The notes under the pieces were generated by a model. It was not told where the DNA came from. It did not search any database and was given only the letters and a program-made list of their open reading frames with translations. Below, in pieces: positions 44,401 through 50,400 of a stretch of 64,000 bases of DNA. Positions within the stretch are counted from its first letter, which is position 1. Every line of letters starts with the position of its first letter. Source of the stretch: Cristatella mucedo. Lineage: Eukaryota; Bryozoa; Phylactolaemata; Cristatellidae. The stretch spans positions 2,718,501 through 2,782,500 of the forward strand of contig WPIO01000027.1 of assembly GCA_009760855.2 (NCBI GenBank), written 5' to 3'. Made by a program: the position numbers and the translations under genes.

Positions 44401-47400
44401 GTAATGAGCTGAAGAACACCTGGTTTGCTGGCAAACACACGTCCGGTGCTAATGTGGGATGCATAGGCAAAGTATGAGAGTTTGTTTGCTCACTCGCTTG
44501 CTGGCCGACAATTCTGGAATGTGTGCTTGTAGCAAAACCTTGTTGTTCCGCAGATCCTGTCTATTCAGCAGCTATGGCTGGCCAGTTTGGCTGCAGTCTT
44601 CCTAGCTCTTTCCGCAGGCTGGATGCAGCCTCAGTGTAGCCTATTGGCTGCCCCATTCACCCTCCCAGGTGGCACCAGTAGTTCGTGTGTCGCAGTTTAT
44701 AGGGGACATTGTGGCCTCCTCTCGGTTTTGCATCGCGCTGCTATTGGCAACAAGTTTTCACACTAACCTCACATAACCGGATGTACCTCGAGGGGGGTTA
44801 GGCCAGAGAGCTGATGAGCGCTTGGGTTAGCAAGTGCCTCAAATATGGCGCACAAGCAGGTAGGGTGAGCATGATGAGCACATAGCCACACTGTCCACTA
44901 CTTGTCTTGTCGTCTGGCAGCAGACCGCGCCTGCAGTTGCAACGCAGTCTCTGCTCTTCGCCAGGGGCTCGGTGTGTTTTTTATAATGCAACGTTAAAGA
45001 ATTGCTGTAGCTTACTGATTCAGCCGATCGGTAAGCTGGCACTCTGGAGGCAGCGCTCACCTCGTGACGCACTTGATCTGTGAATATTAGCAGGCTCGGT
45101 GAAGACGCCGCCGGCAGCTGGAGTCAAGGGAGCCATGGCAGCGTTCAAGCAGCTGGACAAAACGAATAATCCTAGTGCGCAGCTGACGAGACCCAAGTGA
45201 GTCGGCACAAATCGCTTCGGTGCCATCGTGCTGCCACTGGCACGTGGTCCACCACGAAGTGGGCTGTTCGGTGGCTGGGCATCTTACTTTGGCAGCTGCT
45301 TCTTATCAATGCAGTGTCGGCACCTTGCATTCCAGTCGACTGCTAGGCCAGCCAGTGGCTTTCAGCACGTGATGAAGATTGTATCAAGTGATGCTCGCCT
45401 ACCATGCCTGGAAGAAACTAGCAAAATTGCAGGCCGACAAACAGCCAGTAGAAAGAACAAAATCTGCCGTTTATGCAAGCAGTTAAATAATAAGCATCAG
45501 ATTATAGCTAGCTCTCGTGTACCGTCCTCATGCTTCCTTTCGCCAGTAGCTAGCCCGATACAGATATATGAGCAGCTCGAGCCTTTGAGTTAGTGCGCGA
45601 GCGAGGTGCGTTCGAGTGCTGACCGCCCGGGCACATCCGGGCCTTCGGTGCTGTGCATGTGTCAATGTTCAGCTCCCTACCTGGCATGGTGCGAATAGTG
45701 TTTGGTACCCAGCGTGTTGCAATCACGAATGGTGAGTGCGGGCACTCATCCAAGACGGTGCATGCTCGTACGAAATGGTGTTCGGCACAAGCATGTGACC
45801 CCCCATCTCCCTCGCTGCTGAGACTGCGCCTCGATCGATTGGCGCTGGCAGCACTTCACGTCTTGGATGTCGGGGAGGGGGGTTGAGTCCGCAGCCGAGT
45901 CAACTCTTGTCGCTGGGCTCTGGGTCCCCAGTATCGTACTGCTCGGTTTGTCGATTCTCCTGTCGATGGCATCTGGACTGGCTAAACAACGACGGACAGT
46001 ATAGCCTTCGTTCGATTTGACGATCGTGTGACTTCAGGTCTTGGTAACCTTCGATTCATACACAGTTTTGTGACGGAATGCACGTGGGCTGTGAGTGAAA
46101 GGAGCATGGAAGGCATCAGATTAGACCGAACTGGAATTAAACCTTGGAAGTGTAGGCCGTGGTTGTCAGAGTGAATCAGGGCGCCTGTCTACTCACAGAC
46201 GTTCGATGTCGGCTAAGCTGCTGTACGCGATGCATCGAATGGTGCACCTTAACAGGATTCAAGATTTGCAGCCCTACTGGAGTAATGTGCAGTGCAATAT
46301 GCTGGGAATTGTTCAATGTCTTGTTCAATCTGTTGTGCTCTTTTCGAGTAGGCTCCAGGGGCACAGCAGTAGGCAACACACGTGACATAATGTACTGCTG
46401 TACAGTAGTAGTCTTTTATTATGCTAAGAAATATCTGAGGGGCAACTGCCTCCCAAGCTGTCATCATTATCATCCATCCTGAAGGAGATAGTGTTTTTAT
46501 TTGTAGCCATGTTCATTCAGAAATGTGGTTACTTAGCAGTCTCGATATCAAAATATTTGAGTGCAAAATGAATGCATAGCCTATTTATTGCTGACGGTGC
46601 TGAACAAACCCAATCAAATTATCCTTTCAATGATGAATTCAAAGAAATTCTACTGACGGTCTAAGCCTGATGGACTACTTGTAGAACCTTCTGTTTGGCC
46701 CACAGGAGGGGGCGGTCTGAGTAACAAGAGCATGAAAAGCTCCGCCTGTGGGCACTATGCTCAAATCCATTAAAGTGGAAGGCAAAAGAGAACGTGAAGA
46801 AGCCGCTGTAGTCTCACTGCATAAGCCATGTGGCTTCAAGTTAGGTAGGTACACTAGTAAAGAGTTCACCTGAATAGGGGCTTTTAGGATAGTGCCAGTC
46901 AGCATTATTCTGGTCAGGCATGGTGCTGAAAATGCCTTAATAGGTTTTGCACCGATGGCATCTCTGAAAGGTGGGCAGGGCGATGTAGAAGAAGAAGCCC
47001 GTGGATTTAACATGTAGAAACAGCCACGGTGACAAACGTTAAGGAAGACATGCATGCAGAACATTCGATGCACATATTGAATTTCCATCATTATTGGCCC
47101 CATGCTTGGCAAGAATGGACTCATTTGTGATCTTTTACTATGCATCGATGATCGTTAGGGTTCATAGGAAAACTCGCCTTACCGTGACTTATACACTGTT
47201 ATGGATCCGTTGAGCACTAGTCGATGCTGCTAACGGTCGCTCTTATGCTTCTACGAGCAACAGTGTGCTTATCACCAAGGTGACAATGCCGACCTTATCA
47301 CGTCTTCTAAAATTGGTTGCCATGTATGGCCCAGCTGCATTATTGTTGGATCTTGCATTTTCTGCAGTGGCCTGTCGGCTGTTCCTGCAGCCCTACATGC

Positions 47401-50400
47401 CGTGAAAGTGTTTAAACGAGCTGTCAAAAACGTAACGGAGATCAAGCAGGAGATCCTGTCATTTGTCAAAGCAAATACGGCCGAGTATGAGGTACTAAGC
47501 ATTTTTGGCAGGCTAGCCCATGTGGGCTGGTCGCTATGCTAGTAGTTCAGTGTGGGCTTGTACGTGTGTGCACGGCATGCCGCTTATGGTGCATGAACCA
47601 GCGAATCTTATACCTAGAGAGGCTCATAGAATGCCGTTGCTCGAAGCCACCACCTGTGCCAAGATAGTTGTCCACACGGCACCACCTTCCTGACTTCTCC
47701 CAAGACAATTAGCTACATTCTAATGCATGAACAGGTGCATACAAGCGCGCATACACACACACACTCACTCACTCACTTACTCACTCACTCACTCACTCAC
47801 TCACACTCACTCACTCACACACACACACGTGCACTCTCATGCACCCACACTCGTGAGTGCACACATGCAGAGCACTAGGGCCACTGTAGTGTGAAGCAGG
47901 GGTGATCAACCATCGCTTGGCTGGGATAGGGTGTAAGATGCACGAGAACGACAGTGTTACATGCTGCTGCATCATCTTGACTTCTGTCATTATATTGTGG
48001 TGCAAAGGAGTTAACTGCCGAGTCTTCTGTAGTGCAGCCGCCTTGACTCAGAGACCAATGCCTGCCGATTAAGTTGCATGCGCTCGCCCGTGTTTGAAGT
48101 TGACTGCATGACGTCTTCAGCATGCAGCTGCAGCAGCGTGCTGTTGGCTACCCTCTGTGGTAGTGAGGCAATCGTCCTTTGAAACCGGGTACTCCAACCT
48201 TTCGTCGTGCTACACCTCGTCAGATCTATCGTCGAACAGCTAGCATTGCCGTGCCCGACAGCACCCATTCCTCGGATTTACTAGCAGCCTGGTGGAAGCA
48301 CCAAGGCCATTGCCAGACTGATCTGAGCAGCTGGCTGCTCTTGGCGGCGGGGAGAGGGGAGCACGGTGGAATAAGGGCGACACGAGCTTCCCTCACACTC
48401 AGCACCTGCAGCAGCAGCGTCCACCCTGGACATCTCCACCCGACCGAGGTGGTCTTGCTGTATTTGACCATAACCCGGCTCCCCTCCCCCTCTCCTCGTC
48501 TTCTTGCCCGACTGACTTTAAGTGGCACGCGGTCGCTCGTGGTGAGATGCTGTTTCGAAGCTGCTAACTCAGCTGTCGTCGTTGGCTGTAGCTATCTTTC
48601 GTCCCCGTCGGCGACACTATCACCAACTGGTGCCAGCCCACGATCTGGGGGCGGCCTGCAGCGCAGCGTTAGCGATATTAAGGAGATGTTGCTTAACTGG
48701 TGCAGGCATGCCACAAAGGACTACAAGGTACACTGCCTGACCACTTGGTCTGCCCTCTACTACTGCTGCTGTTTGCCACTGCTGCTGCCTACTGTATGTG
48801 CTTCCAATAGCTGGTGCCTGGCTTGGCTTGCCTACATTGCTGCCGATTTGGATTTGCTTTGCTGATTGCCTGGCTGTATTTAATTGAGTTTTAAGGAGGC
48901 CAAACTAAACGCTAAGAGAGGTGCCTAGCTCTAGCTAGCAGCTCTAGGTGCTATTGTTGGCTTGGCATGGCTCGGGCATCTTCTGTGCCGTCATTAGACA
49001 GTCTATGAGTGTATGCCCATCAGCAAGCTTGCTGTGCCTTGTTTATGTTTATTGTAATTGTTACACTAAGAAGAGCCATTTTTCGTACCGGAGAACCCAT
49101 GACACCGGCACGTGACTTCATGATGTGCTCTATATTCGAGCTACACCTTCTACATTTTAACTCCACATAATGTAAAGTTTGGAAGCAGAGCGATATTCTA
49201 GTATTTAAATGCAAGCAATAAATTAATGAAATGCCTGTAGCTGGATTCCAGCAAACAGTTTCCAGGAAACTGCATTCCACATATGACATCCGGCGGCAAG
49301 TGGTTTGAACTTTAGGTGGGCCTGGGATGTATCCTAAAGTGACTTTATTCTAAGCTAGCTTTGTTCATATTTTTCAGAAATCCAAGATTTGGAATTCATT
49401 GTAATAGTGATACAATCTATACCATATAAGCACATTTGCTCAATAGTATGCTCTCGAATCGTCTAGTAAATGCACATCTCTGTGGGCAGTCACAGCAATC
49501 GTAGTCTTCGACAAATTGCTTTCAAATTCGGCTACTGTGTCGGAAATCAAGTCTAATCTCTATAGGCTGTCAGTTTTGGCATCGAATAGTTCCTTTTGAC
49601 TAGCGGTAATGGTAGTAACGATAAGTCTTTGGCCGATAAGTCTATTGCTGAAGCAGATTTATGTGTACATCATGCAGATCTCAACTTGGACTGATTTGCC
49701 ACTACTTTCCAAAAAATATATGTAGTGTATAAATCATCCGTAACCCAACTTACAGCTTGGCACCCAACTCACTCCCCCTCACAGAAGACTGCCTGCGCAT
49801 GTAATGGAAAGTTCTTCGACATCAGTTTGTGCAACGTGCAGTCTCGTCGAAATTTAGCTGGCTGGATGACAGCCCTTTTGGTTGGCCTGCGAGGGACCGG
49901 AGCCCGCTTTTGCAGTGCGGGGTGGCACCATCAGCTGGGAGGCCAGCTCTCATTGGCCGCCTGCAAAGAGCAGCACAGTCTGCTGATGAGCTCACACCGT
50001 GCCCGTGCTGTGATTACAGATTAGCATTGATAATTATTCGACCAGCTGGAACAATGGTATGGCTTTTTGTGCATTGATACACCACTTCTATCCCGAGGCA
50101 TTCGACTACAACTCACTGGACCCCAAGAATAGAAGATACAATTTCACGCTTGCATTCGACACGGCAGAGTATGTACAAATGATTCTCCTCATTTACACGC
50201 TCGCTTCAACTAGCTGTCTGCTGCTTCAGCTGTCTCCTTCTCCTTGTGCCTGCTCGACTTGGCACTCCACACTGTGCAGTTGCAATCAGACGTGGAAAAG
50301 CAGTCGAGGTAAACTAATTTCACAGCCTCATTATATATATATATATATATATATATATATATATATATATATATATATATATATATATATATATATATAT

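Follow-up and report, generated by a model that had tools for sequence, protein, structure and literature searches.

A probable pair of mutually exclusive exons for the linker and first CH-domain helix of a bryozoan smoothelin

We analysed a stretch of 64,000 nucleotides (nt) from the genome of the bryozoan Cristatella mucedo (contig WPIO01000027.1, positions 2,718,501 to 2,782,500 of the forward strand), here called the window, on whose plus strand lies the 3′ portion of a smoothelin gene. Very probably this gene contains two homologous, old and mutually exclusive exons, 14a and 14b, which lie between the shared exons 13 and 15 and each encode a version of the linker and first helix (helix I) of the CH domain. 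The reading is built on the frames, on the fact that both exons are homologous to helix I, and on the isoform models of a chiton. All features of the gene given below are on the plus strand, in window positions.

The exon boundaries, phases and frames of exons 11 to 16 were rebuilt directly from the DNA, which confirmed all the exon coordinates, phases and stop codons that an earlier, sequence-only reading of the window had proposed for the pair. Exons 11 (42467–42712), 12 (43052–43876) and 12b (44020–44103) keep a frame that is open through to exon 13 (45094–45196). The latter, common to both isoforms and placed by the rebuilt frame and a tblastn match of a Dreissena smoothelin at 45126–45176, exits in phase 2 (..CCC AA|gtgagt), with two codon bases left over. 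Exon 14a (47368–47491, 124 nt; ttttctgcag|TGGCC..TATGAG|gtacta) encodes an F-type linker and CH helix, and was placed by its frame, splice sites, tblastn matches and control scores. Exon 14b (48592–48727, 136 nt; ttggctgtag|CTATC..TACAAG|gtacac) encodes the canonical W-type linker and CH helix I, and was placed by its frame and homologue matches. Both enter in phase 2, one base completing the codon of exon 13, and exit in phase 0, and they are separated by an intron of 1,100 nt with GT–AG ends (47492–48591). Exon 15 (50020–50168, 149 nt; acceptor gattacag|ATTAGC) encodes CH helices II–IV. The terminal coding exon 16 (50727–50877), for CH helices IV–VI, ends in ..NKHQYAEN and the stop codon TGA at 50875–50877. 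The intron between exons 15 and 16 contains a long (TA)n tract at 50331–50439.

With 14a alone or 14b alone, the frame remains open to this common TGA. Because the lengths of 14a and 14b are both 1 mod 3, their double inclusion or double skipping meets a premature stop. If both are used, the frame reaches a TAG at 48670–48672, inside 14b and 204 nt before the last exon junction; if both are skipped, it reaches a TGA at 50075–50077, 91 nt before that junction. Exactly one exon is thus usable, as the sequence-only reading had held, and its interpretation is supported as far as splicing is concerned. The two have the marks of a mutually exclusive pair: they are neighbouring and homologous, their phases are equal, and the frame is open with one of them only. 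Transcripts whose premature stop precedes the last junction by more than 50–55 nt are targets of nonsense-mediated decay (NMD), so that the products of double inclusion and double skipping would both be targets. NMD would then remove transcripts with both exons or neither, and protein would be made from single-exon choices only. The premature stop created by double inclusion would also suit a regulated poison or cassette exon, with joint inclusion of 14a and 14b turning the gene off through NMD. We regard such a role as very improbable, since the helix I encoded by 14a completes the CH domain, a homology that a poison exon does not need, and since the chiton model uses the counterpart of 14a without 14b.

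The encoded domain is a C-terminal type-2 CH domain closest to those of SMTN and SMTNL1. For both isoforms, the best matches among solved structures are smoothelin (2d87) and SMTNL1 (2jv9), ahead of alpha-actinin; the match to human smoothelin 2d87 has an E of 7.3e-45 for the 14b isoform and 5.5e-41 for the 14a isoform, with helix I covered in both. The Pfam CH score, above the cut-off, is 82.0 bits with 14b, 74.5 bits with 14a and 65.6 bits without helix I. Both exons align to CH helix I. In the helix core, 14b has the canonical Trp (LLNWC) and 14a has Phe (ILSFV). Over the last 20 residues, 14a shares 6 of 20 identities with 14b and 13 of 20 with the corresponding exon of the sea slug Elysia. 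The 14b linker is rich in Gly, Ser and Pro, with a putative R-x-x-S phosphosite at the start of the helix; the 14a linker is basic, with a net charge of +4 that is kept.

Counterparts of both types were found among the homologues. A search of an animal protein database with the 14a isoform gave 2298 proteins at E ≤ 1e-10 among 2764 candidates, the best 120 of which were examined; a further protein search, in which 66 of 86 candidates had E ≤ 1e-8, added Plakobranchus. In the resulting set of 164 proteins, Elysia crispata (P0001) has NGLLAVSLAKKAATTMRRNAVAIKQEILYFCKMNTQEYE at the position of the window 14a peptide. Isoform X2 of the chiton Liolophura sinensis (P0002) carries the 14a-type NALVTVSLAKKAATTMRRNAVQIKAEILDFCKSNTAEYK, whereas isoforms X3–X5 (P0003–P0005) carry the W-type KVVRNPSAIKQMLLDWCKAMTAEYE at the same place; the residues that flank the helix-I segment (..PKSAMAAFKQMDALSPGAAKP upstream and NVQITNFSSSW.. 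downstream) are identical. The Plakobranchus ocellatus protein P0163 is of the 14a type by direct inspection; in its model, the helix runs straight into the later part of exon 15, with helix II residues lost, probably through an annotation slip. Counted by sequence pattern, 154 of the homologues are W, two are F (P0001 and P0002), seven fit neither, five of these carrying Trp but not the Lys of the pattern, and one (P0163) is without the exon-15 motif. None of the 164 combines a 14a-type and a 14b-type segment. Among the homologues listed, no 14a-type segment was found outside the molluscs, a negative tempered by clustering at 90% identity, which can hide isoforms, and by a region search that missed a true relative. 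Of its 6 candidates, this short-region protein search gave back no more than the query itself, and its negatives are weak because it missed P0001, which other searches had found. The 14a type is thus conserved in Liolophura, Elysia and Plakobranchus, which answers a refuting condition set by the sequence-only reading, a lack of 14a conservation in relatives. Together with the frame logic and the presence of both alternatives in the Liolophura models, this supports the proposal that the gene makes two proteins differing in CH helix I and its N-terminal linker.

Exon 14a was also recovered from the DNA by these proteins. When 13 homologues were compared by tblastn with the window plus 18.5 kb upstream (82.5 kb), Plakobranchus (E 7.8e-5) and Elysia (E 3.6e-4) matched 14a from its first full codon at 47369, and Liolophura X2 (E 1.4e-4) from 47375; the alignments extend slightly beyond the donor. 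The 39-residue Elysia exon peptide gave one match up to E 10 in the 572-Mb genome (688 contigs), in which its residues 2–39 align with window 47369–47491 at 55% identity. A second copy of the window 14a peptide was not found in the search.

Given that the window contains 1521 forward phase-compatible AG..GT open segments of 88–187 nt, 14a could in principle be a chance open intronic segment without a biological role. Of these segments, 35 overlap exons 14a, 14b, 15 or 16; the other 1486, with 1843 reverse segments, served as 3329 controls, which overlap one another and so are not independent. Against a profile of 161 homologues, the segment joined to exon 15 scored 136.8 bits for 14b and 124.0 bits for 14a, compared with 105.4 bits for exon 15 alone, 112.4 bits for the best forward control and 117.1 bits for the best reverse control. 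In the full forward list 14a is seventh, and the six above it all overlap exon 15 or 14b. Against the Elysia and Liolophura 14a-type peptides, 14a scored 84 and 76, window 14b 42 and 47, and the best of the 3329 controls 33 and 34. These scores, with 14a as the only reported genome match to the Elysia exon, led us to reject a chance frame; conservation refutes it in practice, and we give it next to no credence. On these comparisons, 14a is a genuine feature.

Several observations weigh against a working pair. The case for it is drawn from DNA and from protein models. The 14a type is present in three of the 164 homologues, all of them molluscs (the chiton Liolophura and the sea slugs Elysia and Plakobranchus); one species among them, Liolophura, has both alternatives, as database isoform models, and the clustering of the set may hide isoforms. 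The genome match of the Elysia peptide has an E of just 0.28 and was the lone candidate past the search prefilter. Scored on a matrix against all GT in the window, the donors of 14a and 14b are not strong, with 14.6% and 10% of window GT, respectively, scoring equally well. AlphaFold2 gives a disordered linker in both isoforms. Furthermore, the window 14a has diverged, sharing 22 of 39 identities with Elysia and 19 of 39 with Liolophura, as against 30 of 39 between Elysia and Liolophura, in which the linker half is the better kept (18 of 21).

The genome also holds a smoothelin paralogue (contig C36, 990605–999195), which has counterparts of parts of exons 11, 12, 13, 15 and 16. Its exon 15 is 81% identical in DNA to that of the window, and its helix-I exon, of 79 nt, is of the W type (FGGDSKLMQVADALLRWSRYMTKGYE). 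In a tree of the exon 15–16 residues, in which 22 of 36 inner branches are open, the window groups with support only with this paralogue; these residues score highest against a database protein without a name and against bivalve proteins (Dreissena, Sinanodonta). On the same adverse side as the points above, tblastn with the 14a peptide found nothing at E ≤ 1 in 24 kb around the paralogue, and of 124 phase-compatible segments in its exon 13–15 interval, those that carry an aromatic residue or a Tyr close to their end included no 14a-like one. In the paralogue, the exon pair was either lost or never present from its origin.

Exon 14a of the window might accordingly be read as a decaying remnant, once alternative and now little used in this species, with the gene making the 14b protein only. 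The drift from the near-invariant linker of the two molluscs, the modest 14a donor (gag|gtacta) and the paralogue without a 14a counterpart fit such a history. However, the 14a frame is open throughout, its two splice sites and its phases are intact, and the exon retains the 14a-type helix residues (the 13 of 20 in common with Elysia) and the linker charge of +4. We consider a remnant improbable and prefer two exons in use. The lineages of chitons and gastropods have been separate for over 500 million years; the 14a type, kept in a chiton and a gastropod, is at least that old if the stretches are orthologous.

In the preferred reading, the choice between 14a and 14b would be regulated by cell type. 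The intervening intron, with its length of 1,100 nt and GT–AG ends, makes it unlikely that crowding or incompatible splice sites force the choice, and trans-acting factors would be the likelier enforcer. The intron contains four TGCATG on the plus strand, at 47590, 47724, 48075 and 48105, the first of them 98 nt past the 14a donor. TGCATG is the RBFOX site, and in vertebrates a site in such a position promotes the exon upstream of it and represses the exon that follows. At least four TGCATG are reached by 5.4% of 1100-nt windows. Over the whole window and both strands, the motif occurs 132 times, against 77.6 expected (s.d. 8.9), and none of 100 shuffles had as many. As the density in the intron is unexceptional and the window is rich in the motif, an RBFOX-type role is only a lead. 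Between exons 13 and 15 there is no ACTAAY, CTCTCT or TCTCTC. A search of 45197–50019 for RNA pairing as an exclusion device gave 7 short imperfect inverted pairs, nothing compelling. Liolophura X2 and Elysia have in common an upstream segment, ITV(R/K)TESWNS, which X3 is without; strict coupling of the 14a type to this segment was rejected, the examined part of the 14a-type Plakobranchus protein being without it. Upstream of the exon-13 part, Liolophura P0002 and P0003 differ (DDVANNL..TESWNS.. and DKDGKTTTTT.., respectively), so that the same gene model has a second alternative region.

Any functional difference between the isoforms would lie mainly in the linker and the helix-I surface, because both chiton forms are predicted to have the same CH fold. 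An amphipathic helix in the 14a linker was considered and rejected, residues 296–309 falling below pLDDT 50 in AlphaFold2 (with three 14a-type sequences in an alignment of 47). A basic residue three before the Ser just ahead of helix I is present in 105 of the 154 W-type homologues and absent in P0001 and P0002; phosphorylation of this Ser is a guess from the shape of the motif. The basic segment of the 14a type, SLAKKAATTMRRNAV, is identical at 15 of 15 residues between the chiton and a sea slug, and has no Ser or Thr at the phosphosite place. The window 14a has a Thr there, with a Lys three residues ahead of it (KNVTEIK), which makes it doubtful that this species has lost the phosphosite.

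Unlikely, though worth stating, is a broader proposal in which the pair switches smoothelin from one mode of regulation to another: a disordered 14b linker with a putative phosphosite, and a 14a basic binding module for a ligand such as calcium-calmodulin, actin or an acidic lipid. Such a switch would predate the split of chitons and snails, would have arisen independently of the vertebrate one, and would be set according to the type of muscle, such as catch or smooth versus striated. Against it, the window 14a keeps the charge of the basic segment and not its sequence, and has Thr at the phosphosite place. 

For the choice between 14a and 14b in the preferred reading, muscle type is a reasonable axis, as scallop catch muscle is enriched in a smoothelin-like protein (excerpts of PMC5963113). 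In SMTNL1, apo-calmodulin binds at a C-terminal IQ motif (residues 439–457) away from helix I, the calcium-calmodulin site (residues 310–325) lies at the protein centre, in the disordered stretch that precedes the CH domain, and the isolated CH domain binds tropomyosin only very weakly (excerpts of PMC5359911). An effect of the Trp/Phe swap on calmodulin or tropomyosin binding, which the sequence-only reading had raised, is on these grounds less likely than an effect of the linker; if binding differs at all, the swapped linker would be the likelier cause.

A pair at this place differs from the alternative splicing of vertebrate SMTN, in which helices IV–VI alternate via exon 20 and the helix-I exon and a 152-nt exon are constitutive; the 2023 survey by Garg and Fisher reports that no other alternative splicing producing variable CH domains was found (PMC10643981). 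In both systems, splicing yields two versions of the C-terminal type-2 CH domain, the exon order around helix I is the same, and every helix-I exon has a length of 1 mod 3 (118 nt in vertebrates and 115 nt in SMTNL1, 124 and 136 nt here; the next exon has 152 and 149 nt, respectively). The window follows the family plan of a helix-I exon, a II–IV exon and a terminal IV–VI exon. In vertebrate SMTN, a cassette exon with its own stop changes helices IV–VI (PMC10643981), whereas here helix I and the linker change and helices II–VI are shared. A second exon-16-like exon was not found with the 13 homologues in the 82.5 kb at E ≤ 0.05, the sole match being at 50692–50871.

Exon 8 of ACTN2, a gene with tandem CH domains, lies in the actin-binding CH region, and its versions 8a and 8b exclude each other. 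ACTN2 is another gene, and the window is without ACTAAY, the QKI core, between exons 13 and 15. As here, 8a and 8b are an alternative pair in a muscle gene, and skipping leads to a premature stop, in exon 9; the skipped RNA is removed by NMD, as demonstrated with an NMD inhibitor, and the pair is regulated by QKI (excerpts of PMC7782589). Exons 19a and 19b of alpha-actinin-1 likewise replace each other, so that this actin-linking protein has a muscle and a non-muscle form, but they swap an EF hand rather than a CH helix (excerpts of PMC6684058). The direct counterpart is Liolophura X2 versus X3–X5, database models in which both alternatives follow identical upstream residues, although the Liolophura linker sequence differs from that of the window. 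A literature search of titles and the starts of abstracts found no helix-I exon pair named. Mutually exclusive exons in cytoskeletal genes are already known; the helix-I pair in lophotrochozoan smoothelin is new, and implicit in database isoforms. Within the smoothelin family it is a seemingly independent second case of a variable CH domain, with the variation at the end opposite to that in vertebrates. Little is understood of what smoothelin does, and two natural forms of the protein differing in about 40 residues offer a comparison that would probe the roles of helix I and the segment preceding it.

Further upstream, an exon piece at 34032–34112 matches the Smoothelin (PF12510) region of homologues (tblastn E 0.001–0.03), a domain located at residues 7–40 of Plakobranchus P0163. 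Exon-like matches to the Ig region of a Gigantopelta Ig–smoothelin fusion (P0010, I-set at residues 23–112) lie on the plus strand at 3639–3941 (tblastn E 2.5e-6) and 8009–8134 (E 0.003); this smoothelin gene may begin with Ig domains about 40 kb upstream.

Elsewhere in the window, the minus strand carries at 52451–55501 a 1016-residue open frame of a non-LTR retrotransposon, with endonuclease and reverse transcriptase assigned by reading of the frame; related pieces lie at about 12.2–13.1 kb, 27 kb, 57 kb and 59 kb, and near the C36 paralogue. The mitochondrial contig C688 of the same assembly has 21,008 bases and contains repeats of about 2.1 kb with copies in both orientations. With gene names from open-reading-frame reading, it carries nad1-nad6-cob-nad4L-nad4-nad5 on one strand, an order linked to that of lophotrochozoans, and cox2 and nad2 run opposite to the rest of the recognised genes. 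COX1-like pieces are present on contigs C166, C83, C549 and C299 and are perhaps nuclear copies.

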